Part shown: piece by piece, positions 2,138-35,900 of the stretch
How positions within the stretch are numbered: the first letter of the stretch is position 1
Layout of the letters: every line of letters starts with the position of its first letter
From: a candidate division WOR-3 bacterium
GTDB lineage: Bacteria > Hydrothermota > Hydrothermia > Hydrothermales > JAJRUZ01
Assembly (NCBI GenBank): GCA_039803925.1
Contig: JBDRZL010000006.1
Coordinates: forward strand, 1 to 64,000
Direction of reading: 5' to 3'
Length of the DNA stretch: 64,000 bases
Position numbers and translations under genes: made by a program
The notes under the pieces: generated by a model
The model's database searches: none
What the model saw: the letters and a program-made list of their open reading frames with translations, nothing else
What the model was told of the DNA's origin: nothing

Positions 2138-3384
2138 TTGAAAGGTACAAAATAAAAGAGATTGAAGAAATATGGAGTGAAGAAAATAAACTGAAATTAT
2201 GGCTTAAAATTGAGATCCTGACAATAGAAGGATTTGAGAAAAATGGGATTTTGCCAAAGGGGATATCAGATAGAATTAAAAAGAAAAATATTATAATAAC
2301 ACCCTTAGAGGTTAAAGAGAGAGAAAAAATAACAAATCATGATGTTGCTGCTTTTGTCGATGTTCTTGAAAAAAAAGTAGGTGAAGATATTGCGCCTTTT
2401 GTTCATTTTGGTTTAACCTCCTCGGATCTTCTTGATACTACAATTGCCATTCAGATGAGGGATACATTAAAAATTGTTTTGAATAGACTAAAAATTTTAG
2501 AAAAGGTTCTGGAGAATAAAATAAAGGAAAACAGGGGAATTTTAATAGCAGGTAGAACACATGGAATGTTTGCCGAGCCAATGACTCTTTCCCATAAATT
2601 TCTTTCTTATCTTTCAGAGGCGAAGAGAAATGAGAAAAGATTAAGGGAAATAATTAAAGAGGTTTCCTTTGGAAAAATTTCTGGATCTCTTGGAAATTAT
2701 CTCCATGTTCCACCTGAAGTTGAGTTTTATGTATTAAAAAAACTTAATTTAAAACCAGAACCAGTTTCTACACAGATAGTTCCGAGGGATAGACATGTTT
2801 TATTCCTTTTCGGTCTTGTTTTAATAGGGAATTTTCTTGAAAGGTTAGCAACTGAGATAAGGCTTCTTTCAAGAACAGAAGTTGGTGAATTAAGTGAGCC
2901 TTTTAGTGAAGGTCAGAAAGGTTCATCAAGTATGCCCCATAAGAAAAATCCAGTTATTTCAGAGAGAATATGTGGTCTTGCAAGGCTTTTAAGGGGTTAT
3001 CTTATTTCTATTCTTGAAAACACTAATTTATGGCACGAAAGGGATATATCCCACTCTTCTACTGAAAGAATTGTTTTACCAGATGCTTCCCATTTAACTG
3101 TTTATATGCTTGATAAGATGATTTTTATTTTGGAAAATTTATTAATAAATAAAGAAAAAATAAAAGAAAATTTCAAAAAATATGAAAAAGAACTTTTTTC
3201 TCAGGAATTTCTCTATTTTCTCTTAAAAAAAGGTAAAAAACGTTCTGAGGCTTATGACCATGTTCAGAAAAAAATATTTGAAGGGAAAATTCCAGTGGAT
3301 GAAAAAGATTTTGAAAAATTAAAAGAAGAACTTTATAATAAACTTATAGAAATAGAAGAAAAATTGATTGAGAGGCTATTATGA
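2134..3384 (+). CDS. purB: Adenylosuccinate lyase
   Basis: It catalyses two fumarate-releasing steps in purine synthesis (SAICAR to AICAR, adenylosuccinate to AMP). The fumarase/aspartase superfamily signature GSSSMPHKKNP is at about residues 263-273. TSSDLLDT and GRTHGMFAEPMT carry other active-site segments. Length, 416 aa, fits the short bacterial form. Starts at an ATGA overlap with gmk and ends at an ATGA overlap with the GGDEF gene. No other pur genes are nearby. Confidence 0.95.
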   Translation: MIERYKIKEIEEIWSEENKLKLWLKIEILTIEGFEKNGILPKGISDRIKKKNIIITPLEVKEREKITNHDVAAFVDVLEKKVGEDIAPFVHFGLTSSDLLDTTIAIQMRDTLKIVLNRLKILEKVLENKIKENRGILIAGRTHGMFAEPMTLSHKFLSYLSEAKRNEKRLREIIKEVSFGKISGSLGNYLHVPPEVEFYVLKKLNLKPEPVSTQIVPRDRHVLFLFGLVLIGNFLERLATEIRLLSRTEVGELSEPFSEGQKGSSSMPHKKNPVISERICGLARLLRGYLISILENTNLWHERDISHSSTERIVLPDASHLTVYMLDKMIFILENLLINKEKIKENFKKYEKELFSQEFLYFLLKKGKKRSEAYDHVQKKIFEGKIPVDEKDFEKLKEELYNKLIEIEEKLIERLL

Positions 3385-4670
3385 TTGATGAATTTCTAAA
3401 GGATAATGTATATTTAGTTTTAAGTTTTTTTCTTGCTTTTATTATTATCCTTATGATTGTAATCTTTGAGTTGAGGGGAAAATTAAGGGAAAGGGACAAA
3501 AAGATAAAAGAGTACGAAAGGAGATTGAAGGGGTTAAGAGAAACACATGAATTTATGGTTAAAGAACTTACTGCAAGAATTGATGAACTTAATGTTATGT
3601 TTTCGAAAAGAAAAAGAATAACTCAATCTGTTATTAATCTAGCAAGAGCTTTGAGTGAACTCAGAGAGGAGAAAGAGATTATATATCTCGTTCTTGAGCA
3701 AACAAAAAATATATTAAATGTTACAGATGTTTATTATTTTATCCCGCAGGACGAAGGTTTAAAATATGTGCTTTTTGAGCACAGGACGTTAAGTGATAAG
3801 GGAACTTTAAAGAGAGGTGAACTTGTTTATAATTTAGGGGAAGGTCCAATAGGTTATGTTGCAAAAAAAAGGTATATAATGGATAAAGATACCATGTTTC
3901 AGGATGCCCTTGTTGATGGGTTACCTGAAACTTATCTTGCTGATCCCTTTGGAATGGATTATGAGATAATTTCACCTCTTACTTACCAGGCAACAAATTT
4001 TGGAGTTATTGCTGTTTCAGGAATAAAGGAGGAAAAGATAGAGGGGGTCTCATATAGGGAAACAAAAGAGGAGGCATTAAGAACATCCATGGAAGCCCTT
4101 CAAATGATTTCTGAACTTACTTCTCTTGCTCTAAACTCAGCTATGCTCCTTGAGAAGATTCAGACAATGGCTGATACTGATGGTTTAACTGGAATTTATA
4201 ACAAAAGATATTTTATGGAAAGGCTTTCAAGAGAGCTTTTAAAGGCAAAACAGGATGGTTATAAGGTGGGTATCTTTATGCTTGATATAGACTTTTTCAA
4301 AAAATACAATGACACAAATGGACACCCTATGGGTGATAAACTTTTAAGAAGTATTGCAAAGATTTTGAAAAAAACAGCAGAAACACTTAATGGAATACCT
4401 GCAAGATACGGAGGAGAAGAGTTTGTAGTGCTTTTACCTGGAAGGAATAAGTTTGAAACAATGACCTATGGTGATCAAGTAAGAAAAATAATTGAAAAAA
4501 CAAGATTTCCTAAGGAAGAAAAACAACCGGGTGGTAAACTCACAATATCAGGTGGTGTGGCTGTTTTTCCTGATGATGCCCAGGATGAGAAGACTTTAAT
4601 TGATAAAGCAGATAAAGCTCTTTATAAAGCTAAAGAAAGCGGTAAAAACAGGGTATTGGCAGCTGGTTGA
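3381..4670 (+). CDS. Membrane-anchored GAF-GGDEF diguanylate cyclase
   Basis: Predicted to make cyclic di-GMP. One N-terminal membrane segment (about residues 8-30) is followed by a charged coiled coil (35-75), a GAF-like sensor domain (about 80-250) and a GGDEF domain with DTDGLTGIYNKRYF and RYGGEEF near residue 343. GGEEF is an active variant. The inhibitory RxxD site five residues upstream is absent, so product feedback is probably lacking. It sits just upstream of prepilin peptidase and about 7 kb before the pilus motor genes, a setting that suggests control of type IV pili or surface behaviour, though that is inference. Confidence 0.9.
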   Translation: MIDEFLKDNVYLVLSFFLAFIIILMIVIFELRGKLRERDKKIKEYERRLKGLRETHEFMVKELTARIDELNVMFSKRKRITQSVINLARALSELREEKEIIYLVLEQTKNILNVTDVYYFIPQDEGLKYVLFEHRTLSDKGTLKRGELVYNLGEGPIGYVAKKRYIMDKDTMFQDALVDGLPETYLADPFGMDYEIISPLTYQATNFGVIAVSGIKEEKIEGVSYRETKEEALRTSMEALQMISELTSLALNSAMLLEKIQTMADTDGLTGIYNKRYFMERLSRELLKAKQDGYKVGIFMLDIDFFKKYNDTNGHPMGDKLLRSIAKILKKTAETLNGIPARYGGEEFVVLLPGRNKFETMTYGDQVRKIIEKTRFPKEEKQPGGKLTISGGVAVFPDDAQDEKTLIDKADKALYKAKESGKNRVLAAG

Positions 4671-9558: not shown

Positions 9559-9562
<4 letters not shown>

Positions 9563-10047
9563 GTGAATATAAATATATTGAGGAAAGCTTTAAGAAAGTA
9601 GAGACAATTTTGAAAAAATTAAAAGAAACTTCAAATTCAAATGCTGTTTTACTTATTGATAAAGCAGGACAATTAATTACCTCTATAGGTGATATAAGTG
9701 GTTTTGATTTAGTTTCTTTTGCTACTCTTTCAGCTGCTGATTTTGGTGCAACAAGTCAGCTGGCAGAACTTATAGGAGAAAAAAGTTTTTCTTCCCTTTA
9801 CCATCAGGGTGAAAAAAACTCCTTGTTTATTTCTCTTGTAGCAAATAGAGTTATTCTTGCTGTTCTTTTTGATTCCAAGACAACACTGGGACTTGTAAAA
9901 GTTAGAACCAAACATGCTTCTGAAGAACTGGAAAAAGTTCTTGATGAACTATTTGAGAAACTTAAGGTGGCACCTACAAAGGAAGTTTTTGATAAAAGTT
10001 TTATAAAAGAAGCAGAAGAAGAACTTGATAAACTTTTTGGACCTTAA
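9559..10047 (+). CDS. Roadblock/LC7-domain protein, MglB-like
   Basis: A 162-aa protein with one roadblock fold: a leading helix, then SNAVLLIDKAGQLITSIG and later NRVILAVLFD. In polarity systems MglB is the GTPase-activating partner of the Ras-like MglA. The gene immediately downstream encodes an MglA-type GTPase 6 nt away, which supports that reading. The C-terminal acidic helix (about 130-162) extends beyond the core domain. It overlaps recR by 4 nt. Confidence 0.85.
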
Positions 10048-10053
10048 GAAAAA

Positions 10054-10647
10054 ATGGCTCTTATAAATTACGCTGCAAGAGAAATTAATGTTAAAATAGT
10101 GTATTATGGACCTGGGCTATCCGGGAAGACGACAAATATAAAATACATATATGAAAAACTTTCACCTGATCTTAAAGGGCAATTAGTTTCTGTTGCAACA
10201 GAACAGGAAAGAACCTTGTTTTTTGATTTTCTTCCTATAGATCTTGGAAATGTTAGAGGATTTAAAACAAGATTTCACCTATATACAGTTCCAGGACAGG
10301 TTTTTTATAATGCTTCAAGAAAGCTTATTTTAAAGGGTGTTGATGGTATAGTTTTTGTGGCAGATTCTCAGATAGAAAGGATGGATGAAAATATTGAAAG
10401 TTTTGAAAATATGATAGAAAATCTTGAGACCTATGGGTTAAAATTAGAGGATATACCCTATGTAATTCAATACAACAAAAGAGATTTACCCAATGCTGCT
10501 TCAATTGAAGAACTTCAAAAGAATTTAAATAAAGATAGTGTTCCCTATTATGAAGCAGTCGCAACAGTTGGAAAAGGTGTTTTTGAAACTTTAAAAGAAA
10601 TAGCAAAGATGGTTATAAGACACTTATCAAGTAAAACTCCTGCGTGA
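10054..10647 (+). CDS. mglA: MglA-type small GTPase
   Basis: A Ras-like GTPase of the bacterial MglA family, a switch for cell polarity and type IV pilus motor placement. Motifs: P-loop GPGLSGKTT at 19-27, G3-like [13 protein letters not shown], which has the MglA-type T/P in place of the Ras DxxG aspartate, G4 NKRD near 145, and [14 protein letters not shown] near the C-terminus. It follows an MglB-like gene and precedes cinA by a GTGA overlap. PilB and PilT, likely clients, start about 1.2 kb downstream. Confidence 0.9.
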
Positions 10648-11864: not shown

Positions 11865-13709
11865 ATGAAAAGGATAAAAAGAATCGGTGAAATGCTTATA
11901 GATGCAGGAGTTATCAATGAGGAACAGTTAAAAAAAGCTCTTGAGATGCAGAAAAAAAATGGTAAGAGGCTTGGTTCTATTTTACTTGAACTTGGATATG
12001 CTTCTGAGGATGATATTTTAAAAGTTTTAGCAGAGCAGTATGGGAATGTTCCGGTAGCAAAAGCCAAGCATTTTGAAAACATTCCAGAGGATGTGATAAA
12101 ACTTATTCCTCCTCATGTGGCTGCAAGGTATGATGTTATACCACTTGCAAAAAAGGGGAATAAGTTATTCCTTGCAATGGCTAATCCGGATGATCATTTT
12201 GCAATTGAGGATGTCAGGTTTTTAACAAAGCTTGAAATTGTTCCTCTTATTAGTCTTGAAGATTACATTAAAGATGCAATTAAAAAATATTATAAGGTTG
12301 AAGATATGATGGATCAGATAGTTAAGATTGAAAGTGAGGATATGGGAATAGAGGTAATTAGTGGAGGATCCGGGATAGAAAAGAGAACAGGTTCTGGAGC
12401 AATAGAAGAATCATTTGATAATTTAACTGGTAAAAATCTTGATTTAAGTATAGAAGAAGTTCTTTTAACTTCTGATGATGATAAAAGTTTGACTCATGAT
12501 AAAGTAGAGGATGAAGCAGAAGATATTACGAGCATAAAGGATGAAACATCACCTGTTGTAAAACTTGTAAATGCTATTCTTCTTGAGGGAATAAGAAGAA
12601 AAGCTTCTGATATACATATTGAACCCTACGAAAAAGATTTAAGGGTTAGATATAGGATTGACGGTGTATTGCAGGAGGTTTTAAAGAGGGATGTAAAATT
12701 AATAAGACCTATTGTAGCAAGAATAAAAGCAATGGCGAAAATGAAACTGGAAGAAAAGAGAAGACCACAGGATGGAAGAATAAGGCTAAAGTTGGGAGAT
12801 AAGAGGATTGATGTTCGCGTTGCTACTGTTCCAACGGTTTATGGAGAAAAAGTTGCTATGAGAATCTTGGATAGGTCTGCAATAGAGTTAAATTTAGATG
12901 CTCTTGGATTTGAGGAAGAATCCTTAAAAATTTTCAGAAAAGCTCTTAAAAATCCCAATGGAATAATTCTTGTTACAGGACCTACTGGAAGTGGAAAAAC
13001 AACCACCCTATATTCTGCTCTTCAGGAACTCAACTCAATAGATGTTAATATTTCCACTGTGGAAGATCCTGTTGAGTTTACACTTCATGGTATAAATCAG
13101 GTTCAGGTAAAGGAAGAGGTAGGTATGACTTTTGCTGCTGGTCTAAAAGCTTTTTTAAGACAGGACCCTGATATAATAATGGTAGGAGAAATTCGTGATC
13201 TTGAGACAGCAGAAATCGCTATAAGGGCATCTTTAACAGGTCACCTTGTTTTATCCACTGTTCATACAAACACAGCTGCTGCAACTGTTACCCGTCTTGT
13301 AAATATGAATATTGAACCTTTCTTAATTGCCTCAACTCTTTTAGTTGTGGTTTCTCAGAGACTTATCAGAAAAATTTGTGAGAATTGCAAGGAGGAATAT
13401 AAACCAGAAGATATAGTTTTAGATTTATCTCCTGAAAACCCAGATAGATTAAAAGGGGCTAAATTTTACAGGGGAAAAGGGTGTGAGAAATGTTTTAAAA
13501 CAGGATATAAAGGAAGAACTGGACTCTATGAAGTGATGCCAATAACAAGGAGAATAAGGGAACTTATATTAAAAAAGGCTCCTACCTTTGAAATTGAAAA
13601 AGCTGCAGTGGAGGAAGGTATGATTACTCTAAGAGAGGCAGGAATAAGGAAAGTTTTGAGAGGTATAACGACACCGGAAGAAGTTTTAAAAGAAACAAAA
13701 ATTGAATAA
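11865..13709 (+). CDS. pilB: Type IV pilus assembly ATPase PilB, copy 1
   Basis: A GspE/PilB-family hexameric ATPase that powers pilus extension. At 614 aa it has an MshEN-type N-terminal domain (about 1-150), a linker rich in acidic residues, then the ATPase core with Walker A GPTGSGKTTTLY near residue 372, Walker B DPDIIMVGEIRD, a GHLVLSTVHTN histidine box, and a C4 zinc site (CENC...CEKC). Start ATG after a short AT-rich gap; TATATA-like promoter sequence lies upstream. It is followed 3 nt later by a paralogue of the same layout. Confidence 0.93.
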   Translation: MKRIKRIGEMLIDAGVINEEQLKKALEMQKKNGKRLGSILLELGYASEDDILKVLAEQYGNVPVAKAKHFENIPEDVIKLIPPHVAARYDVIPLAKKGNKLFLAMANPDDHFAIEDVRFLTKLEIVPLISLEDYIKDAIKKYYKVEDMMDQIVKIESEDMGIEVISGGSGIEKRTGSGAIEESFDNLTGKNLDLSIEEVLLTSDDDKSLTHDKVEDEAEDITSIKDETSPVVKLVNAILLEGIRRKASDIHIEPYEKDLRVRYRIDGVLQEVLKRDVKLIRPIVARIKAMAKMKLEEKRRPQDGRIRLKLGDKRIDVRVATVPTVYGEKVAMRILDRSAIELNLDALGFEEESLKIFRKALKNPNGIILVTGPTGSGKTTTLYSALQELNSIDVNISTVEDPVEFTLHGINQVQVKEEVGMTFAAGLKAFLRQDPDIIMVGEIRDLETAEIAIRASLTGHLVLSTVHTNTAAATVTRLVNMNIEPFLIASTLLVVVSQRLIRKICENCKEEYKPEDIVLDLSPENPDRLKGAKFYRGKGCEKCFKTGYKGRTGLYEVMPITRRIRELILKKAPTFEIEKAAVEEGMITLREAGIRKVLRGITTPEEVLKETKIE

Positions 13710-13712
13710 ATT

Positions 13713-15467
13713 ATGGCTCTAAAAATTGGAGAACTTTTAATAAAACACGGTCTTATAACAAAGGAGCAACTTGAAGAGGCATTAAAAAAACAAAAAGAAC
13801 TTGGTAAAAGGCTCGGTTCAACCCTTGTAGAACTTGGTTATATTACTGAAAAACAGCTTGTTGAGGTTCTTGCAAAACAGCTTGGTGTCCCTGCCATTGA
13901 TCTTTCTGATATAAAAATTCCTGATGAAGTTTTAAAACTTTTACCTCCTGATATCTGTTTTCAGTATGAGGTTCTTCCCCTTGCAAGAAAAGCAAATATT
14001 CTATTTCTCGCTATGGTTGATCCCTCAAATATTCAGGCTCTTGAGAATGTTAAATTTATAACAGGACTAGATGTAGAACCAGTTATTGCTGCAGAATCAG
14101 CTCTTAGAAGATCTCTTGAAAAGTTTTTCCCGGCTTATAAAAAGGAAATAGCAAAGATAGAAGAATTGAAGAAAAAAGAAAAAGAAGAGGAACTCATAGG
14201 ATTTGATTTAGAAGATGTGGAAGTAGAGGATTATGAGGAAAATCTTGATGAAAAAGAGATTTTAAAGTTAAGTAAAGATACCCAGATAACGAAAATTGTT
14301 AATAAAATAATAAAAGATGCTGTTACAAAAAGAGCCTCTGATATTCATATTGAACCTTTTGAAAAGGTTTTAAGAGTTAGGTTGAGAATAGACGGTGTTT
14401 TGCAGGTTTATGCAGATCTCCCCCAGAGATTGAAAACAGGAGTTGTTTCAAGGATAAAGCTTATGTGCAGTCCTAATCTTGACATATCGGAAAGAAGAAA
14501 GCCACAAGATGGGAGAATTCAATTAAAATTAAAGGATGATAATGGTAATGAGAGAATGATTGATTTTCGTGTTTCAGTTGTTCCTACGGTTTTTGGTGAA
14601 AAGGTGGTAATGAGGATTCTTGATAAATCAGGGCTTAGTCTTGATCTTAAGGTGCTTGGGTTTGAGGAAGATGATCTTCAAAGATTTTTAAAAGCAATTC
14701 ATTCACCTTATGGAATAATACTTGTAACAGGTCCTACAGGAAGTGGCAAAACAACAACTCTATATTCAGCTCTTTCTACCATTAATACCCCTGATAGACA
14801 AATTATAACGATAGAGGACCCTGTTGAATATAACATAGAAGGGATAAATCAGGTTCAGGTTAATAGAGAAGTTGATCTTGATTTTGCAAATGCTTTAAGG
14901 GCTTTTTTAAGACAGTCTCCTGATGTTATTCTTGTGGGAGAGATAAGAGATTCAGAAACAGCTGAAATAGCAATAAGAGCTGCACTAACAGGTCATCTTG
15001 TTTTTTCAACAATACATACAAATGATGCTCCAACAACGATTGACAGGTTAGTTGATTTAGGTATTCAACCTTATTTGATTGCCTCTTCTGTGATATTAAT
15101 TCAGGCTCAAAGACTTGTAAGAAGAATCTGTCAGAAATGTAAAAGAGAAGTTACTTATGATCCTGAACTTATAAAAGAACTTGGAATATCGGAAAAAGAG
15201 ATTCCAAATATGAAATTTTATAAAGGGGAAGGTTGTGAAGTCTGCAATAATACAGGTTATAAAGGAAGGATAGGTATATACGAGGTTATGACAATATCAC
15301 CAAGAATAAGAGAGATGATTTTAAATCGTGCGACATCGGACCAGATAAGGGAGGTTGCAAGAGAAGAAGGTATGCATACTTTGAGGGAGGATGGAATAAG
15401 AAAAATTTTAAAGGGTATAACAACTCTTGAAGAAGTTTTGAGAGTTACAGCAGGAGGAGAAGAATAA
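13713..15467 (+). CDS. pilB: Type IV pilus assembly ATPase PilB, copy 2
   Basis: A tandem paralogue of the preceding gene, 584 aa, with the same order: MshEN-like N-terminus (GELLIKHGLITKEQLEEALK), acidic linker, Walker A GPTGSGKTTTLY near residue 340, Walker B SPDVILVGEIRD, histidine box GHLVFSTIHTND and C4 zinc site (CQKC...CEVC). The linker is shorter than in copy 1 and the sequences have diverged throughout, so this is an old duplication. One copy may serve a pilus and the other a second pilin-based machine; nothing here decides that. Confidence 0.93.
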   Translation: MALKIGELLIKHGLITKEQLEEALKKQKELGKRLGSTLVELGYITEKQLVEVLAKQLGVPAIDLSDIKIPDEVLKLLPPDICFQYEVLPLARKANILFLAMVDPSNIQALENVKFITGLDVEPVIAAESALRRSLEKFFPAYKKEIAKIEELKKKEKEEELIGFDLEDVEVEDYEENLDEKEILKLSKDTQITKIVNKIIKDAVTKRASDIHIEPFEKVLRVRLRIDGVLQVYADLPQRLKTGVVSRIKLMCSPNLDISERRKPQDGRIQLKLKDDNGNERMIDFRVSVVPTVFGEKVVMRILDKSGLSLDLKVLGFEEDDLQRFLKAIHSPYGIILVTGPTGSGKTTTLYSALSTINTPDRQIITIEDPVEYNIEGINQVQVNREVDLDFANALRAFLRQSPDVILVGEIRDSETAEIAIRAALTGHLVFSTIHTNDAPTTIDRLVDLGIQPYLIASSVILIQAQRLVRRICQKCKREVTYDPELIKELGISEKEIPNMKFYKGEGCEVCNNTGYKGRIGIYEVMTISPRIREMILNRATSDQIREVAREEGMHTLREDGIRKILKGITTLEEVLRVTAGGEE

Positions 15468-15469
15468 AA

Positions 15470-15514
15470 ATGGGTTCAAACCCTTTATTAAAGAAAGGAA
15501 TAAAAAATGGCTGA
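15470..15514 (+). CDS. Possible 14-aa upstream peptide overlapping the pilT start
   Basis: An ATG at 15470 preceded by AGGAGGAG opens MGSNPLLKKGIKNG and stops at a TGA that overlaps the pilT ATG by 8 nt. It could couple pilT translation to a short leader. It contains the GGGTTCAAACCC element. Real translation is uncertain. Confidence 0.25.
   Translation: MGSNPLLKKGIKNG
15472..15483 (+). promoter_or_regulatory. GGGTTCAAACCC leader element before pilT
   Basis: It lies 23 nt before the pilT ATG, in the only gap of the pilB-pilB-pilT run. It can fold as GGG-TTCAAA-CCC and belongs to a family of similar sites upstream of other genes in this window. No strong promoter is seen here, so it may act as an internal RNA element. 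Confidence 0.4.
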
Positions 15515-16655
15515 AAATGTACCCAAAAGAGCGGAAGTTAAAAAACCTGAAGTAACACCGGAGGCTGAGGATAAAAAAACAAAGGTTCAAATGCTTTCTC
15601 TTTTACAGGAGATGGTTCAGAGAGGGGCAACCGACCTTCATATTTCTGCTGGTGCACCACCTATGTTTAGAATTGATGGTGTTCTTATTCCTTCTTCGTA
15701 CCCACCTGTTACTCCTGAACAGGCACAGGCTCTTGCTTATTCAGTTATGAGAGATGAGCACAAGAAAAAATTTGAGGAGGAATGGGAATGTGATTTTTCT
15801 TTTGGAATTTCAGGACTTTCAAGATTCAGGGCGAATGTATACAAACAGAGAGGAACAGTTTCAATTGCTATAAGAACTATACCTTTCAGAATCAGAAGTT
15901 TTGAGGAACTTGGAATACCACCTGTTATTCCAGAACTTGCAACAAGACCAAAGGGACTTATTCTTGTAACAGGTCCAACAGGTTGTGGTAAATCAACAAC
16001 CCTTGCAGCACTAATAGACAAAATTAATTCAGAAAGAAGATGTCATATTATTACAATTGAAGACCCTATAGAATATCTTTTTGCAAATAAAAAAGCTTTA
16101 ATCTCACAGAGACAGGTTGAAAGTGATACAAAATCTTTTAAAGCTGCTTTAAAGTATGCTTTAAGACAGGATCCAGATGTTGTTATGATAGGTGAGATGA
16201 GAGATTATGAAACAATAGCTGCTGCATTAACTATTGCAGAAACAGGACACTTAACACTCGCTACATTACATACTAATTCAGCTGTTGAATCTGTTAACAG
16301 GATTATCGATGTTTTTCCACCACATCAACAACAGCAAGTAAGAGCTCAACTTGCCTTTGTTTTGCTCGGTGTTGTTACTCAGGCTCTTTTACCAAAAATT
16401 GGAGGTGGAAGAGTTCTTGCCTGTGAAGTTCTTGTGGCAACACCTGCAGTTAGGGCTTTAATAAGGGATAATAAATTGCATCAGATTTATGGAGTAATTC
16501 AGGCTTCTCAGAAATTTGGAATGCAGACAATGAATCAGTCTATATTTAAACTTTATATGGAAAGAAAAATTACATTAGAGACAGCACTATCTTTTTCGCC
16601 CAACCCTGAAGAACTTGAGCAGATGATAAAAGAAAAATTGCCATCAGTGAGATAA
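15507..16655 (+). CDS. pilT: Type IV pilus retraction ATPase PilT
   Basis: It powers pilus retraction and twitching. At 382 aa it carries Walker A GPTGCGKST near residue 156, the Walker B DPDVVMIGEMRD, the GHLTLATLHTNSA box, and a C-terminal AVRALIRDNKLHQI that matches the AIRNLIRE retraction motif. A 25-residue lysine/glutamate-rich leader precedes the usual start. AAAGGA lies 8 nt before the ATG. Confidence 0.95.
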   Translation: MAENVPKRAEVKKPEVTPEAEDKKTKVQMLSLLQEMVQRGATDLHISAGAPPMFRIDGVLIPSSYPPVTPEQAQALAYSVMRDEHKKKFEEEWECDFSFGISGLSRFRANVYKQRGTVSIAIRTIPFRIRSFEELGIPPVIPELATRPKGLILVTGPTGCGKSTTLAALIDKINSERRCHIITIEDPIEYLFANKKALISQRQVESDTKSFKAALKYALRQDPDVVMIGEMRDYETIAAALTIAETGHLTLATLHTNSAVESVNRIIDVFPPHQQQQVRAQLAFVLLGVVTQALLPKIGGGRVLACEVLVATPAVRALIRDNKLHQIYGVIQASQKFGMQTMNQSIFKLYMERKITLETALSFSPNPEELEQMIKEKLPSVR

Positions 16656-16661
16656 AATTTT

Positions 16662-18746
16662 TTGGAGAAAGGACTTTTTGAATCCTTACTCTACTCAGAG
16701 TCTTTATTAAAACCCTATAAGATTATTTATGATATTGAAGATTTTGTTTATGAAGTCTTGTCAGAGGAATTAAAAAGTTTAATTAGTAATTTCAAAAGGG
16801 AATTTGATTCTCCTCTTGTAATTTTTGATGTAGAGAAGATTTCAGATTATGATACTTTAAAGAAGATTTATGATGAATATAAAAAAGAATTGAAAGGTTT
16901 TTGGAAGGAATTGCTGGAATATCTTTTTTATAAAATATCAAGAAAACTTTTTAATGGTAAGAGAAAATTTGGAACAAAATGGGATGAATTTTTAGAATTA
17001 AGTCAAAGTTTTGAACTTCTTGATATAACTTCCTTAAGTGAAATATTGACTAAAGAAGAACTTTCAATTAGTCTTTTTACCCTATTTATTACCTTTATTA
17101 TTTATGAATTACAAAGATATGAAATTATAGATAGGTTAAGTGTACAAGAAAAGGAAGTATGTAAAAAAATTGTAAAATGGAATCAGAGAGTTTTTAAATT
17201 ACTTGAACCAGAAATTAATAAAAATGAAAAAGATGATAAAATTTTGGAGACAAAAAGAGAGTTATTGAAATTTTTTGATGAAAAGATAAAGGAGATTAAA
17301 GATGACCTTGAAAAAGAAAATATATTTGAACTTTCAGATAAATTAAGCCGAGAATTTACAAAAATTCTTAGATTTACATCTATCACTTTAAAGGATAGGT
17401 TAAAGGATTTAATTAAAAAAGAAAATCCCTTACCCCTAATTCCTGAGAATCATATATTCTATATTTTGAAATTTTTTAGAGCTTTTGAAAAATTACATCT
17501 TGATTTTAAGGATTTCGAAAAAGATTTAAAATTATTATTTGTTGAGGGGTATAAATTTTTTAAAGGAGAATCTTCTCCTTTTTTTGATAGATTTTTGGAA
17601 AGAAAAATTCTTGGAATAGATATTAATCTAACAGAATTTTATTCAAAAAATGTTCATTTTGTAAAGGATATTCTTCAAAAAATTTTTGAATTGAAACTGA
17701 TGGAGAAAAAAATTTTAATAAGACCTCTTGAAAATCCTTATGAAGATGCTAAAAAAAGTGATTCTTTTGTTTATTTTTCTTTGATTCCAAGAGGAGCTTT
17801 TATAAAACTTAAAAATTTAAAAAGAATAAAAGTAAAAATTGAGGAACCTAAAAAATTTAAAGATTTTTTAAAGAAATATAAAAATGTAATTTCAGTTTTA
17901 GTATATGATATAAGGGGTTCAACATTTATGTCTCTGACTCTCTTTAATGCTGAAAAAGAACTATCACTAAAAAAGAAATTTCAAGAAATAATGAAAAACT
18001 CTATAATTTCTTATGGGGGATTTCCAGTTAAGGAAACAGGTGATGGAGGTATTGCCTTTTTTTCTGAAAACTCAGGAAAATTATATAAGGAAGTTTTTGA
18101 GGAAAGTGTTTTGAGCGGACATAGAATGAGATTCCAAAAGGCTGTTTCAGAACAGGTGCTCATAAAGCCTGGCGAAAATTCAGGTGAAAGAGCTCTTTTA
18201 TGTGCCCTTGAACTTCTTGAAAAATCAGAGGAATTTATAAGAAAAAATTATTCTGAATACAGGGGATTTTTCCCCGATGCTCTCGGTATAGATAAACCCT
18301 TGAAGAGCCTATTTAGACTCGGAGTCGGAATTTTTTCCGGTAAACTGGAAAAGGATATTTATTTATCTTTTAATTCATATGGTGATTTTGATATTCAGGG
18401 ACCAGTTCCAAACCTTGCTTCAATTCTCTCAGAGATAAGATTTCCTGAATTTTCAAGCATTCTTTTTGATATTGGGACTTTGGCCAATGTTCTTATTAAT
18501 TCAAATATAATTGAAGTAGAGGAGGATATTAAAGAAATTGATTTAAAAGATTTACTTTTAGAGGGTAAAACTTTTAAAATAAAGAATAAAAATTTTTTAA
18601 TAAGTAATCTGGGGTATATTGATCTTGAAGAAGGAAATAAGGATAAAATTTTTAAGATGGAAGAAATCAAAGAAATTGATTTTTTAAATGATTTATTTGT
18701 AATTGAAAATAAAAAAGGGATTCCAATTTATGGCGGAAGAAGATAA
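16662..18746 (+). CDS. Large protein with a C-terminal class III nucleotidyl-cyclase-like domain
   Basis: 694 aa. The first 400 residues are alpha-helical and charged and match nothing I recognise. Residues about 405-640 resemble the class III adenylate/guanylate cyclase homology domain: VLVYDIRGST with metal aspartate D416, KETGDGGIAFF with the second aspartate D461, then LGVGIFSGKLE and a VPNLASIL segment matching the VNLAARL helix. The arginine expected there is replaced, so activity may be altered or lost. There is an insertion of about 60 residues between the second aspartate and the GIxSG strand. Start TTG 6 nt after pilT. Its position between pilT and a GGDEF gene suggests a pilus signalling role. 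Confidence 0.65.
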   Translation: MEKGLFESLLYSESLLKPYKIIYDIEDFVYEVLSEELKSLISNFKREFDSPLVIFDVEKISDYDTLKKIYDEYKKELKGFWKELLEYLFYKISRKLFNGKRKFGTKWDEFLELSQSFELLDITSLSEILTKEELSISLFTLFITFIIYELQRYEIIDRLSVQEKEVCKKIVKWNQRVFKLLEPEINKNEKDDKILETKRELLKFFDEKIKEIKDDLEKENIFELSDKLSREFTKILRFTSITLKDRLKDLIKKENPLPLIPENHIFYILKFFRAFEKLHLDFKDFEKDLKLLFVEGYKFFKGESSPFFDRFLERKILGIDINLTEFYSKNVHFVKDILQKIFELKLMEKKILIRPLENPYEDAKKSDSFVYFSLIPRGAFIKLKNLKRIKVKIEEPKKFKDFLKKYKNVISVLVYDIRGSTFMSLTLFNAEKELSLKKKFQEIMKNSIISYGGFPVKETGDGGIAFFSENSGKLYKEVFEESVLSGHRMRFQKAVSEQVLIKPGENSGERALLCALELLEKSEEFIRKNYSEYRGFFPDALGIDKPLKSLFRLGVGIFSGKLEKDIYLSFNSYGDFDIQGPVPNLASILSEIRFPEFSSILFDIGTLANVLINSNIIEVEEDIKEIDLKDLLLEGKTFKIKNKNFLISNLGYIDLEEGNKDKIFKMEEIKEIDFLNDLFVIENKKGIPIYGGRR

Positions 18747-19668
18747 ATTGAAAATTTTACTCGGTAATTTCCCTTATATTTTGAATTTTTTGTGGAATAA
18801 GAATAAAACAAAATTGATACTTAAAGAAATATTAAATTCTAATAAAAAGAGTTTTTTTCTTTATAAAAAAATTAAAGACAAATATGTTCTGATTGAGTGT
18901 ATGAATTTAGATAAAAGTCTTCTGCCCGAAGAGATTGAATACAGGGATATACATTTTAAGGAAGTTCCTTATGTTTCTTCTTTAATTTTTGAAGAGTTAA
19001 AGGATTCAATAATTTTTCCCTTTTTTAGTTACGACAAAACAATAGGTTTTATAGGAACAAGGGAAAAGGATTTGAAAGATGATGAAATTTTGTTTTTTTA
19101 TTTCCTTTCACTTTTATACGAATTAATTGATTTTCAGGAAAAAATAGAGAACCTTGTTACCAAGGATGATCTTACAGATTTAAGCAATTCAAAGTTTTTT
19201 CTTGTCTCTTTAAGAACACTTTTAAGTGATAGGAGTAATTTTCCAGTAACGGTTATCTTTATGGACCTTGATAATTTTAAGGAGATAAACGATTTACACG
19301 GTCATTTTGTGGGTGGAAGGGTTTTGCAGAAGGTGGGGGAATTTTTAAAGAACTTTTTCATTTCCAGTGATTATTCTTATGCAATAATTTCAAGATATGG
19401 TGGTGATGAATTTTCTTTTATTTTTCCAAAAACTTCCCTTGAGGAGGGTGTTGTTATTGCTAATACTATACGAAGGGAACTTGAGGAAAATAAAATTTAT
19501 GTGAGGGAAGATCTTTCATTCAATATTAAAGCAAGTTTCGGTGTTTCAAGTTTTCCTGTTTCTACTGATAAACCTGAAAAACTTCTTGTTCTTGCAGATA
19601 GGGCTCTTTTTGAAGCTAAAAAGATGGGAAAAAATTCCGTTTTTTCTATACCACCAGTTGAAAAATAA
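18730..19668 (+). CDS. GGDEF-domain diguanylate cyclase
   Basis: 312 aa. An N-terminal domain of about 140 residues, possibly a reduced GAF fold, is followed by a GGDEF domain with TKDDLTDLSNSKFF, FMDLDNFKEIND and RYGGDEFSFIFP. There is no membrane segment and no RxxD inhibitory site. I chose ATG 18730, which has AAAGGGA about 9 nt upstream and overlaps the preceding gene by 17 nt. It ends the pilus-linked gene run. Together with the cyclase-like neighbour it makes a two-gene nucleotide-signalling pair. Confidence 0.85.
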   Translation: MAEEDKLKILLGNFPYILNFLWNKNKTKLILKEILNSNKKSFFLYKKIKDKYVLIECMNLDKSLLPEEIEYRDIHFKEVPYVSSLIFEELKDSIIFPFFSYDKTIGFIGTREKDLKDDEILFFYFLSLLYELIDFQEKIENLVTKDDLTDLSNSKFFLVSLRTLLSDRSNFPVTVIFMDLDNFKEINDLHGHFVGGRVLQKVGEFLKNFFISSDYSYAIISRYGGDEFSFIFPKTSLEEGVVIANTIRRELEENKIYVREDLSFNIKASFGVSSFPVSTDKPEKLLVLADRALFEAKKMGKNSVFSIPPVEK

Positions 19669-19725: not shown

Positions 19726-19998
19726 ATGACAAAGCATCAAATTATACAGATAATACATAAAGAAACTGGTCTCCCGAGAAAAGATGTAAAGATTGTGGTT
19801 GAAAAGTGTATAGATATAATAAAAAATTCCCTTTTATCAAAGGAAAAAGTATCCTTAAAGGGATTTGGTATATTTAAGGTTAAATGGAGAAAACCAAGAA
19901 CAGGAAGGAATCCTGCTACAAAAGAAAAAGTTCCAATTCCTGCAAGGTGGAGAATAGTTTTTGAACCTTCACCTAAAATGAAAATACCTGAAGAATGA
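19726..19998 (+). CDS. HU/IHF-family DNA-bending protein
   Basis: A 90-aa nucleoid protein. The family signature GRNPATKEKVPIPA lies in the DNA-inserting arm, and VSLKGFGIFKVKWRKPRTG precedes it. The N-terminus (MTKHQIIQIIHKETGL) and dimer helices are in the expected places. A proline follows the arm as in HU/IHF. It leads an operon with its own promoter and a GGTTCAA leader. Confidence 0.93.
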   Translation: MTKHQIIQIIHKETGLPRKDVKIVVEKCIDIIKNSLLSKEKVSLKGFGIFKVKWRKPRTGRNPATKEKVPIPARWRIVFEPSPKMKIPEE

Positions 19999-20036: not shown

Positions 20037-20129
20037 ATGCCTTGCGGAAGAAAAAGGAAACTTAAAAAAATAAAAAAACATAAACTAAAAAAAAGAAGAA
20101 AAAAGATGAGACATAAAAAGAAAAAGTGA
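20037..20129 (+). CDS. Very small basic protein, AURKAIP1/COX24 (mS38-like) family
   Basis: Reads MPCGRKRKLKKIKKHKLKKR and on to RHKKKK, 30 aa, about three quarters lysine, arginine or histidine. The opening MP(S/C)GxKRK and the repeated KKHKxKKR pattern match the tiny AURKAIP1/COX24-domain proteins known in Bacteroidetes-type bacteria, related to mitochondrial ribosomal protein mS38. It probably binds ribosomal RNA. The stop overlaps the GTG of the next gene by 4 nt. Genes this short are commonly missed. Confidence 0.8.
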   Translation: MPCGRKRKLKKIKKHKLKKRRKKMRHKKKK

Positions 20130-30686: not shown

Positions 30687-32984
30687 TTATTCTCTTATAA
30701 CCTGAATACGAACTACTTCAGTATTACCAATCCCATCCTGACCTGCAATTACAATTTCTTCTTCATTGGGTTCTATTTCAAGAACTTCTCCTGACCTTGT
30801 CCTGCCAATAAATTTTCCATTTAAAAACCAGAATATAGTATCTTTTTTTGATGAGGTAAAACCCATTAAGGGAATTTTTGATGCCCTTTTTATCCCCTTT
30901 GGAATTAAATATAAGGCATTATCAATAGGACTTACTATTTTCAATTTTTCCTTTTTTTCAACAATTTTAAAATCAGGGGGAAATTCAGGGGGTTTACCCT
31001 TACCACCTAAAATTTTCTGAACCGGTGGAGGAAATACAATAAAGGTTTTTTCAACAATTTCATTTTCCTTATAATTTTTATAAGGATTTGCTCTGTATCC
31101 TGTTTTCTTCTCTATAATAAACTTCTTATGAAATGGACATTCTATATAAGTGTGAGCATTCCTTAACATTGGTGCAAGTTTTGTTTCACTGCAAGCATTT
31201 CCTTTTTTATATCCTGAAAAGGCACATACCTCAACTGAATCTATTTCATTAATTGCTTCATATTCCCATTCAAAGAATCCATTAAAAGGTTTTTCTATTG
31301 CTTTTATTATATCAAACATTATCGGTGCAGCTAATTTTACTCCAATAATACTGTCAGAACCTTCACCACTAAAATTTCCAACCCATACACCAACTGTGAA
31401 GTCTTTCTCAAATCCAATTGACCATGCATCCCTTCTACCAAAAGAGGTTCCTGTTTTCCAGCATACCCTTCCTGACGGCATGACAAATCTTTTTAAATTT
31501 GGAGCCTCAGGTCTTTCTCTTTTTGATAATGATTTTAATGCTAAAAAACATGCCCCTTTGTTAAATAGTTCCTTTTCTTCTGTATTTTCATCCTCAATTA
31601 AAACATATTTACCATGCATACCACCTTTTGCAATTGTTACATATAAATTTGTTAAATCTAAAAGTCTAACATCCATACCACCTGTTATTATTGGAAGCCC
31701 GTATTTTTCAAAACTTAGAGGGCCTTCTAAACCAGCTTCCATTAATTTTTTAACAAATCTTGAGTAGCCGTATCTTTTTAAAATTAATATAAAGGGGATA
31801 TTTAAAGAATTAGAAAGGGCTTCCTCAGCTTTTACAAGACCTTTAAAATCTTTCAAAAAATTTACAGGTTCAAAATCACCAAATTTGTAAGGTGCATCTT
31901 CAATAAGTGATAAAGGGTTTATTAGTCCATCTTCTATTGCAAGAATATAAAGAAAAGGTTTTAAAGTAGAACCAGGGGACCTGTAAGCATAAAAACCTCT
32001 CACCTCACCCTGATTTTCCTTATCAAAATAATCAAGAGAACCTATAACCCCCCTTACTTTTCTTGTTTTATTTTCAATTACAACTACACTTAAATTTGTC
32101 GCCCCCATATCCCTTATTCTCTTTTTGTAAGATTTTGCAATATTTTCAATTTTTTGTTGGATTTCCTTATCAATAGTGCTTTTTATATCGTTTTGAGAAT
32201 AATTCAAAACAAGAAAATCACTTATATGTGGAGCATAAAAGGGAGTCTTTTTTAATTCAGGTATTTGTGCTTTTATTCCTTCAAGATAATCACTTTCACT
32301 TATTAGACCCTTATCAAACATAATTTTTAAAACCCTGTTTCTTCCTGTAATTTTATCTTTTTCCTTTTGAAATCTTATTGAAGGAGACTGGGGGAGTGAA
32401 ACTAAAAAAGCAACCTCCTCAGGTGTCATATTAATAGGTAATCTTCCATAATAGAAAAGCATTGCAGCACCTATACCTTCAATGTTTCCTCCATAAGGTG
32501 CAATATTTAGGTATAGTTCAAGTATTTTCCTTTTACCGAGCCTTAATTCAAATTGAATTGCTCTAAAAATTTCAATCAATTTGTTTATTATTGTTCTTTC
32601 CTTTGGTTCAAGAATCCTTGCTAATTGCATTGTTATTGTTGAACCACCTGAAACAATTTTCCTTTCCTTTATGTTCTGAATGAGTGCCCTTAAAAGGGAA
32701 AAGGGATTAAAACCAGGATGATAATAAAAATATTTATCCTCATAGAGTATTGTTGTTTTAACAAAGAGTGGATCAATTTTTTCAAGGGGTATAAAGATTC
32801 TCCATTTTTCATCAGAGGTTATATAAACCCTCATTGGGGAACCATCTCTGAACCTAACAATTTTTGACCATTCAGGATTTATATTTTCAGGTAAGGGAAT
32901 AGCATAAATTAAAAGAAGGAAAATAGAAACAAAAATTAAAAAAATTAAATATTTATTTTTTGTTAACTTTAAAATAAAAGGCAT
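30687..32984 (-). CDS. pbpC: Penicillin-binding protein 1C
   Basis: A bifunctional periplasmic murein synthase with an N-terminal membrane anchor (about 10-30). GT51 transglycosylase motifs include SGGSTITMQLARIL and GGNIEGIGAA. The transpeptidase domain has SPGSTLKPF (SxxK), SNSLNIP (SxN) and KTGTSFGRRDAW (KTG). A C-terminal beta domain of about 90 residues closes the protein, as in PbpC. 765 aa. It overlaps the upstream alpha-2-macroglobulin gene by 32 nt; this pairing is the same as E. coli yfhM-pbpC. Confidence 0.95.
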   Translation of the reverse strand: MPFILKLTKNKYLIFLIFVSIFLLLIYAIPLPENINPEWSKIVRFRDGSPMRVYITSDEKWRIFIPLEKIDPLFVKTTILYEDKYFYYHPGFNPFSLLRALIQNIKERKIVSGGSTITMQLARILEPKERTIINKLIEIFRAIQFELRLGKRKILELYLNIAPYGGNIEGIGAAMLFYYGRLPINMTPEEVAFLVSLPQSPSIRFQKEKDKITGRNRVLKIMFDKGLISESDYLEGIKAQIPELKKTPFYAPHISDFLVLNYSQNDIKSTIDKEIQQKIENIAKSYKKRIRDMGATNLSVVVIENKTRKVRGVIGSLDYFDKENQGEVRGFYAYRSPGSTLKPFLYILAIEDGLINPLSLIEDAPYKFGDFEPVNFLKDFKGLVKAEEALSNSLNIPFILILKRYGYSRFVKKLMEAGLEGPLSFEKYGLPIITGGMDVRLLDLTNLYVTIAKGGMHGKYVLIEDENTEEKELFNKGACFLALKSLSKRERPEAPNLKRFVMPSGRVCWKTGTSFGRRDAWSIGFEKDFTVGVWVGNFSGEGSDSIIGVKLAAPIMFDIIKAIEKPFNGFFEWEYEAINEIDSVEVCAFSGYKKGNACSETKLAPMLRNAHTYIECPFHKKFIIEKKTGYRANPYKNYKENEIVEKTFIVFPPPVQKILGGKGKPPEFPPDFKIVEKKEKLKIVSPIDNALYLIPKGIKRASKIPLMGFTSSKKDTIFWFLNGKFIGRTRSGEVLEIEPNEEEIVIAGQDGIGNTEVVRIQVIRE

Positions 32985-35900
32985 CGGAGTTACCCATTAT
33001 TTCTGGATTATACATAACAAATCCTCTAACAGGAGAGGTATAGAATTTTCCAGGTGTTACAGCACGAGCTAAGTAGTAATAACAGAGAGTGTCACTTGTA
33101 ACACTTCCAAATAAAATTATTCTGTCATCCCTTATATCCACATATGTAGGTGTCATTATATTTCTTCTTTTTACCCAGAAAGGTAAGCTTGTTTCCTCAA
33201 TTCTTGGATTTACAATTTCAAGACCTGCCGGAATGGGTGATTCTATTGCAACATTTTCATAATATCCTGTTGATTTAACTAAAATTTTTATAACAAGTAA
33301 ATCACCCTGTTCTGCGGTTTCAGTTTTTTCTCCTTTAAAGGTAAAAATTTTTCTCTTTAAATGAAGACCCTTTATTTCCTCTTTGAAATCTTCTTCTCTT
33401 TTAGAAAATCCAGAGTTTTCAATACATAGATATAAGTTTTCCTTTGATTTTATCTCAAGAAAAACTTTTTTACCACCTATATTTTTTAAGAACCATGAAT
33501 AAACACCCTTTTTCTCATAGGGTTTATATTTTTTGCTATCAATTGAAATTTGAGCTTCATACTTTTCTCTTTCAAATCTTTCCATATACATTCCTAATCC
33601 TGCCAAACACCATGCAAGTTCTTGTGTTGTATAGTAAAAACTTTTTTTGGAAAGAGCTTCTCCAATTTCTATTAATAGTCTTTCTATTTCAGAATTAGAA
33701 GGGTCAATAGTCTGTGTAATAAATAATTTCATTCCTTTGTATTGAAGGGGACTATAAAAATCTTGGGAATATCTTCTTGTTTTTGGTTCTTCTTCCTTTA
33801 AAACCTTTTCAAGGAGATTTTTTGCCTCTTCTTTTTTACCTGCTTCATTTATTGCTCCACAAACAAAAATTCCGCTTGGAACATCAAATTTTTCCTTTCT
33901 TGAAAGAGCTATAATTCTATCTAAATATTCTTTCTTTTTAGAAAGATAACCACCTCTTGCAAGAACATAGTATGTAAGCCCGTTTTTATCTTGAATTGCA
34001 TCAAGGTAATTAAGCGCAGCTTCTATAACTCCTTCAGGAACAAAAAATCCTTCTTTTTCGCTTTCAATTAAAACAAGTGTAGCATAAGCACTTGCCCAAG
34101 GTTCTGGATCTCCTCCTCCAGGCCAGAAGGCAAAACCACCTGAAGGAGTTTGCATTGATATTATCCTTCTTATTCCTGAATTTACCATATCCGTATATTT
34201 ATCTTGTGTGATTTCAGGGTTTATAAAGGGTAAAAGATTTTTAAGTTTAATTAGGAGAAAGGTTTTTGTTGATGTTTGCTCTATACAGCCGTAAGGATAG
34301 GAAATAACATATTTTAAATGATTTAGTCTTGTAAGACCTGGTATTGGAGCAAGTATTAGATTTACTTCATGGGCTTTTGGATAAAATTCCTCAAAATATT
34401 GTGATAAATCATTTTTATCAGGAGTAACCTTTACATACTCTGTTTTAGTTATATAAGGCGTATTTGGATAAAGTGGAATTTCAAAATCTTCATAGTACCT
34501 TTCTCCCTCACTATTTCCTTCAATTTTTATTTTAATTGAACCTGGCATATTATCTGCCTTGCAATTTATCCATATAATATTTTTTTCCTCAGCCGGAGTT
34601 GTAACAATAAATTTATCTTCTTCAGCTTTTGCTCCTTCAAGAAAAACTTTAATTTCCGTTTTTTTAATTAATTTAGTTGTATTTATAATTGTAACTGGGA
34701 AACTGAACTCATCCTTTGTGCACATGAATCTTGGAATTGTTGGAGAAACAATAACATCACTTTTTACTATTACTTCCTTTTCAGCATTTCCAAGTTTATT
34801 CTCATTAACTCCTGAAATCATTATTCTCAATTTTCCATTATATTGAGGAATTTTAACTTTATATTCAATTTTTCCATCAGGGGAGCTTTCAATTATTCCG
34901 CTCCAGTAGGAAACAAGTTTTGTAAATCTTGGTGATACAAATTCTTCTTCTCTTTCAGTAAGTCCACCTCCTGTTTTTTCTAAAAATTTCTTTATAATCC
35001 ATCCAAAAGATTCTGCTGTATTTAAAATTAATCTTAAATCTTTCAAAATACCATTATAAGGGTCAGGTGTCTTAAAGGAAGTAATCTGGAGAATTCCCTC
35101 ATCCACAATTGAAATAGTTCCTTTAAATTTTTCACCCCCTTTAACTTTGATTAAAAGTTCTTCTCCTGGTTTTATCTTTTCCGGAACTTCTACTTTTAAA
35201 TCAAGATGAATTTTTTTAGGTCTTATTCTTATTTTCTGAATTCCATAAGCCCTTTGAACGAGATAATTTTCTCCTGATCTTATGAGAAGGGCACTTACAT
35301 AAACATTTGAAACTCCCCGGGGAGCCTTAAATGACCACTTTGCAAGTTCTCCCTTATATTCTTTAACTTCCCTAATATAAATAGAATCAAGTTCCACTGT
35401 CCATAAAATTTTTCCCTCAAAGGGTAAAAGTGCTTCAACATTAACAATTTCACCTTCATCATATTCCTTTTTATCGACGCTTATAGGAATTATTTCAGGT
35501 GATTCCACAACCTCCCTTTCCTCATACCACCAACCCCACCCTGATATTTTTAATTCACTAAAGGCAAGATTTTTTTCATCAGAAACCTCAATAAGATAAT
35601 CATAATAGGATGCTTGTGGAGTAAAGGTAAAAGAAAATTTTCCATCCTCAGCAATTATTTCCTTTTCTTCTGAAACAGGTATTTTGAGAAATCTCGATTC
35701 CCAGTAACCATCACCCTCATAGTATTCATATTCTTCCTCGTAGTAATAATAGCTGTAAGACCATTTTAACATATAAACTCTGTAAGTAAGTTTTGTTCTA
35801 TTTGTATAAAAGGAGCCATCAGGTTTTAAAAGAACCCCCTTTATTTTTACAGGGATACCTTCTCTTATTCTTTTTACATCTGAAATAAGCCCTATATAAA

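Follow-up and report, generated by a model that had tools for sequence, protein, structure and literature searches.

We find that a 694-residue protein encoded directly behind the pilus motor gene pilT in a WOR-3-type bacterium belongs to an undescribed protein family, here called CYC, which on its predicted structure is of the class III cyclase fold, and that the conserved partner of CYC is the neighbouring GGDEF gene, not pilT. From sequence comparison across the phylum, it is well supported that CYC and this GGDEF protein constitute a co-inherited nucleotide-signalling module. The gene lies in the window (the whole stretch of 64,000 nucleotides that was analysed) between pilT and the GGDEF gene, as an earlier note on this DNA had described (Table 1), and the in-frame ATG of the GGDEF gene at 18730 falls inside the last CYC codons, such that the two genes overlap. 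Upstream of pilT are genes for two PilB-type ATPases, cinA, genes for a small GTPase and a Roadblock protein, recR and ligA.

Table 1. Features of the operon that carries CYC (positions within the window; CHD, cyclase-homology domain)
Feature	Position	Strand	Remarks
Roadblock/LC7 protein, MglB-like	9559..10047	+	PF03259, 5e-13
Small GTPase, MglA-like	10054..10647	+	Arf/Gtr1/Ras family matches
PilB-type ATPase 1	11865..13709	+	MshEN domain, two c-di-GMP motifs 29 residues apart
PilB-type ATPase 2	13713..15467	+	MshEN domain, two c-di-GMP motifs 29 residues apart
pilT	15507..16655	+	TIGR01420, E=7e-148; PilT/PilU family
CYC, 694 aa	16662..18746	+	TTG start; begins 6 bp downstream of pilT; helical N-terminus (~5-350), class III CHD (~400-610) with extra segments, C-terminal beta region
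CHD region, residues 398-612 of CYC	17853..18497	+	D416 and D461, metal Asp; K457 and D577, adenine-type base residues; N584, Asn1025 position; I588, Arg1029 position, Arg replaced
Partner GGDEF protein, 312 aa	18730..19668	+	ATG 18730; mechanical ORF from 18703

Several other features of the window were noted. The Roadblock and small GTPase genes (9559-10647), which resemble an MglB/MglA pair, head the same gene run as pilB-pilB-pilT and might encode a polarity switch for pili; the name MglA was assigned from the size of the GTPase and its pairing with the MglB-like gene. Between the GGDEF gene and the phosphoesterase gene lie a 90-residue HU/IHF-like ORF (19726-19998, +) and a very basic 30-residue ORF (20037-20129, +), both of which are conserved in a second genome (L036), as well as a 114-residue minus-strand ORF that is probably spurious. 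A second GGDEF protein (3381-4670) is ordinary, with GGEEF and an Asp at the D344 position (PleD numbering). Farther along, a bacterial alpha-2-macroglobulin of 1781 residues (30687-38298, -) adjoins a PBP1C-like transglycosylase, and these two proteins are a known pairing.

The cyclase fold of CYC emerged from profile and structure comparisons. No Pfam or NCBIfam family matched CYC, and the Pfam cyclase model matched none of 26 CYC homologues. Among solved structures, the CYC family profile matched CyaB of P. aeruginosa (E=2e-5). An AlphaFold model of CYC computed from 76 homologues had a mean pLDDT of 75, with the strands and helices of the CHD mostly at 80-94 and the loops lower. Foldseek searches with this model gave 116 matches at E<=0.001, and the 50 matches listed were all class III cyclases, among them adenylyl cyclases such as CyaB (3r5g, E=1.8e-7), onto which CYC residues ~400-610 are placed. 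Thus, the structural check proposed in the earlier note did find a class III cyclase fold, and the AlphaFold and Foldseek match together with conservation across the phylum argues that the cyclase likeness is not due to chance. The N-terminus is helical at residues 5-350, in line with that note, and matched nothing known. Relative to the adenylyl cyclases CyaB and CyaC, CYC shares the fold, the pair of metal Asp residues, and the adenine-specifying Lys and Asp, but it adds two segments (~35 and 20-35 residues) and the long helical N-terminus, and escapes the Pfam cyclase model. We set aside three other sets of matches: intein, toxin and other weak Pfam matches, which scored far under the cut-off; RpL28-like PDB matches to the CHD profile, which are chance given the CyaB match and the structure result; and helical-bundle PDB matches to the N-terminus (apolipoprotein, designed bundles), which reflect composition only.

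CYC is confined, as far as our scan reached, to genomes of WOR-3/Hydrothermota, Stahlbacteria, Edwardsbacteria, TA06 and the like. A scan of 84,980 species recovered 62 CYC loci, which carry the labels WOR-3, Stahlbacteria, Hydrothermus, Edwardsbacteria, TA06, UBP2 or unnamed bacteria, or else come from relatives that are probably mislabelled; since the scan used two conserved peptide patterns, more distant kin of CYC could escape it. Within the phylum, 59 of 147 genomes reached E<=0.001 with CYC, although a few of these matched weakly and probably through canonical cyclase domains. The CYC tree separates type A, which is mostly GGDEF-adjacent and includes the window protein, from type B, which stands first in tandems or before valS, and this deepest split is weakly supported (75/89). 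Type B genes directly precede valS at 11 loci (L030, L032, L040, L049, L050, L052, L080, L086, L099, L101 and L106), and several of these valS-linked loci stand downstream of a ribosomal-protein/rpoA operon.

We examined the genes that follow CYC. Downstream DNA was available for 81 of 87 CYC genes, and the next gene was GGDEF in 40 cases, a second CYC in 18, valS in 11, a KaiC-like gene in one and other genes in 11. Since the next gene is valS in 11 cases and some other gene in 12, CYC can exist apart from a GGDEF neighbour. In the KaiC case (L053:8524-11405), the CYC is short, and a gene for a KaiC-like ATPase takes the place of the GGDEF gene. The CYC-GGDEF pair itself occurs in at least five neighbourhoods, next to pilB-pilT, mltG (YceG), pyrB-pyrC, or tldD/pmbA, with a fifth in Edwardsbacteria-type genomes, and unpaired CYC genes stand beside ribosomal protein/valS genes. 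This survey rules out pilT as a general partner of CYC and, with the pair beside housekeeping genes elsewhere, pilus retraction is not the general role of the family.

The partner GGDEFs also share a common history with CYC. They form a single clade when compared with the remaining GGDEFs from five of these genomes (37 versus 25 rows, support 99/98); the window genome has only six GGDEF genes. Distances among CYC proteins and among their GGDEF partners were strongly correlated (Mantel r=0.94, 0/2000 permutations; 0.50 among distant pairs), in a comparison made without species-tree control. This co-inheritance could reflect co-regulation alone, without contact between the two proteins. Neither the CYC family nor the CYC-GGDEF pair was found described in the literature, consistent with the suspicion in the earlier note that the module was new.

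The partner GGDEF protein (PF00990, E=5e-35) departs from strict diguanylate cyclases at specific positions. In the window enzyme, the RYGGDEF motif, N335 and both Asp residues of DxD are intact, but the D344 position is Gly (GHFVGG), the cross-dimer Arg position is Ser, and the inhibitory site is missing, as previously claimed, with YSYA in place of RxxD. In PleD, N335 makes the second guanine contact. Asn339 of GacA is in line with this role of N335 (PMC6456294), and D344 of PleD touches GTP and is retained by enzymes that make strictly c-di-GMP (PMC9140294). In Hypr enzymes, Ser or Thr at the D344 position admits ATP and non-Arg cross-dimer residues favour cGAMP; moreover, natural Ser/Thr Hypr enzymes use GGDE[F/Y] exclusively (PMC9140294, PMC6456294). 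We found that all 39 partners have lost the Asp at D344 (Ser in 24, Gly in 14, Ala in one), compared to Asp in 26 of 26 non-partner GGDEFs. All 38 partners that reach the motif have GGDE[F/Y] and no other form; an initial view of the partners outside the order as degenerate, without GG[DE]EF, was wrong, as their motif is GGDEY. The cross-dimer position (the first Arg of N-R-R), located by motif spacing, is non-Arg in 39 of 39; 30 of the 39 partners show the exact spacing of 35 residues, and the window enzyme shows 33. N335 is replaced by Asp in 20 of the 39, and 23 partners show all three Hypr features. The window enzyme has the metal Asp residues with GG[D/E]EF, GGDE[F/Y] and a non-Arg cross-dimer residue, and has neither Asp344 nor the Ser/Thr of Hypr enzymes.

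From these residues, the partner clade is probably shifted in specificity and resembles the cGAMP-making Hypr GGDEFs, with the reservation for the window enzyme that it has Gly at a position where known Hypr enzymes have only Ser or Thr. Like Geobacter GacA and Bdellovibrio Bd0367, which govern surface behaviours (metal respiration and gliding), the partner clade has lost the guanine-specifying Asp, retains GGDE[F/Y] and has no cross-dimer Arg. It differs from these enzymes in the Gly of the window protein, in the replacement of N335 by Asp in about half of its members, and in having a CHD protein as partner. We considered that the partner might instead be a plain diguanylate cyclase that tolerates the change from Asp to Gly at D344 and makes only c-di-GMP, for ordinary local control of a PilB with an MshEN domain. 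The intact N335, DxD and GGDEF of the window enzyme fit this idea, as do the preference of MshEN for c-di-GMP (PMC5013675) and the finding that a D-to-S mutant of GSU3350 remained a pure diguanylate cyclase (PMC6456294). However, the loss of Asp in every partner and in no non-partner marks a clade-wide shift; the same clade has no cross-dimer Arg and uses GGDE[F/Y] exclusively, which is the Hypr combination. We consider a plain diguanylate cyclase unlikely.

Since the earlier note had proposed that the module acts on pilus retraction and that homologues linked to pilT be sought, we examined the link to the pilus motors. The gene order pilB-pilB-pilT-CYC-GGDEF is present in all five genomes examined of the order (G000-G004), which span two families and CYC identities down to ~30%, and at no other locus examined outside these five. 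Thus, the proposal stands insofar as there is a nucleotide-signalling module that is coupled to pilT in this order, but not as a statement about the family, in which the pair elsewhere adjoins other genes, nor in its choice of PilT, since PilB is the likelier receiver. The window genome has only two MshEN domains, both in the PilBs of this operon, and it has no PilZ domain; PilT carries no MshEN-type c-di-GMP motif. MshEN has a pair of 24-residue motifs with 5 residues between them and binds c-di-GMP (PMC5013675). Both PilBs in all five genomes have paired motifs of this type in the relaxed published form, with copies 29 residues apart and a 5-residue spacer, and the window motifs do not match the strict form (PMC5013675). 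Given that MshEN occurs only in the PilBs, that there is no PilZ domain and that PilT has no motif, a dinucleotide would most likely target PilB and thereby extension, and would touch retraction indirectly. The operon PilBs thus resemble the MshE/PilF/PilB ATPases that read c-di-GMP, with two differences: their motifs in the window are of the relaxed form only, and a dinucleotide synthase is encoded in the same operon. The affinity of V. cholerae MshEN for cGAMP is ~660-fold below that for c-di-GMP (PMC5013675), so PilB would be a poor receiver if cGAMP were the sole product. No paper that joins WOR-3, adenylate cyclase and type IV pili was found in the literature searched.

Other parts of a dinucleotide circuit were also surveyed. 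The window genome encodes possible signal degraders, namely one EAL domain and two of HD-GYP type (HD_5); no GEMM-I riboswitch receivers were found in it. Six of the 147 phylum genomes (L146-L151) do have riboswitches of GEMM-I type, and all six also have the CYC family; four of the six have the variant class c-di-GMP-I-GGC (RF03167), and in the riboswitch of L148 the putative ligand-reading position is A. In one genome of the same family as the window (L036:5101-6972), pilB1 reads as two separate ORFs of 249 and 355 residues, owing either to an assembly error or to a real break.

The place of the module behind pilT might be an accident of operon mixing, unrelated to pili, as could be suspected from the pairs beside the housekeeping genes pyrBC, mltG and tldD/pmbA elsewhere in the phylum and from the unpaired CYC genes beside ribosomal protein/valS genes. 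We think this unlikely, based on the retention of the gene order in five genomes from two families down to ~30% CYC identity, and on the finding that the PilBs of the operon hold the only MshEN domains of a genome without PilZ.

We then consider whether CYC itself is a cyclase, with residue roles assigned from earlier work (PMC9223806, PMC4215837). Eight residues are invariant across 76 CYC sequences (Y415, D416, R418, K457, D461, N571, D577 and G580), including the two metal aspartates that the earlier note had named exactly. When CYC was aligned with hhalign to the three canonical cyclase domains that the window genome encodes, N584 paired with their Asn and I588 with their invariant Arg, which confirms the replaced arginine of the earlier note; among the 76 members the residue at this position varies between L, I, F, V, M, T, Y and A and is never Arg. 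The Asn at 584 is kept in 23 of 76 and lost in the other 53. CYC thus has the class III fold, the metal Asp pair and the adenine-type Lys/Asp, and lacks the Asn-Arg pair; CyaB and CyaC, in contrast, have the transition-state Arg that no CYC member has and the Asn that most have lost. The two types differ here as well: all 43 proteins of type A carry R552 and none has Arg at 584; of the 33 in type B, 32 have Q552 and every one has R584, which lies a single helical turn away from the Arg position.

These residues leave some room for an active nucleotidyl cyclase with altered catalysis, in which another positive residue replaces the lost Arg and the product is cAMP or another cyclic nucleotide; in genomes with both types, an A/B heterodimer could supply that residue through R584 of type B. 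Such an enzyme would agree with the invariance of all metal- and adenine-binding residues, with the position of R584 in type B, with the six cNMP-binding domains encoded in the genome, and with the tolerance of Asn loss in some class III enzymes (Ma1120, PMC4215837). Yet both Arg and Asn are described as essential to the reaction of mammalian adenylyl cyclase (Yan 1997, as cited in PMC4215837), the only CYC of the window genome is a type A protein without R584, and the three canonical class III domains of the genome can account for the cNMP receptors; we therefore hold an active cyclase to be unlikely. That CYC is a pure pseudoenzyme or scaffold, which binds no nucleotide and positions or localises the GGDEF enzyme, is suggested by the loss of the catalytic Arg in all members and of the ribose Asn in 53 of 76, but is quite improbable because four nucleotide- and metal-site residues are unchanged in 76 diverged sequences, although a site without function should have accumulated changes.

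The explanation that we tentatively favour, as possible but short of probable, is that CYC is an ATP-binding, non-canonical CHD protein that regulates a specificity-shifted GGDEF enzyme and is wired to pilus motors in this order. CYC and the GGDEF protein would be two halves of one signalling module, in which CYC would hold ATP-Mg without carrying out the ordinary cyclase reaction and would sense nucleotide and regulate the GGDEF enzyme. The latter may take purines beyond GTP alone to make a cyclic dinucleotide, c-di-GMP and/or cGAMP, and in this order the MshEN domains of the two PilBs of the same operon could read that signal and bias extension against PilT retraction. Direct input from a nucleotide-binding partner, as proposed here, would parallel E. 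coli DgcE, which is reported to be a diguanylate cyclase that takes such input from a GTPase partner system (PMC6510439); here the partner, CYC, has a cyclase fold instead. A bolder version, which we consider very doubtful, is that CYC and GGDEF form one hetero-enzyme, in which an ATP-holding class III fold and a relaxed-base GGDEF together produce or gate a dinucleotide of mixed purines, either cGAMP or a new compound; this signalling system would be widespread in WOR-3 and wired to type IV pilus motors in one order.

If the favoured explanation is right, the window holds a cyclic-nucleotide module of two proteins: a cyclase fold that still serves to bind nucleotide but no longer performs its customary reaction, and, tied to it, a member of a GGDEF clade whose base specificity has shifted. 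Signalling of the cGAMP type would then reach an uncultured phylum, beyond the small number of Hypr lineages known so far. The operon is compact, with a proposed signal maker, regulator and MshEN receivers next to a retraction motor, and may offer a model for how pilus extension is set against retraction. The presence of this module in a pilus-motor operon hints at an unexplored control of surface behaviour.
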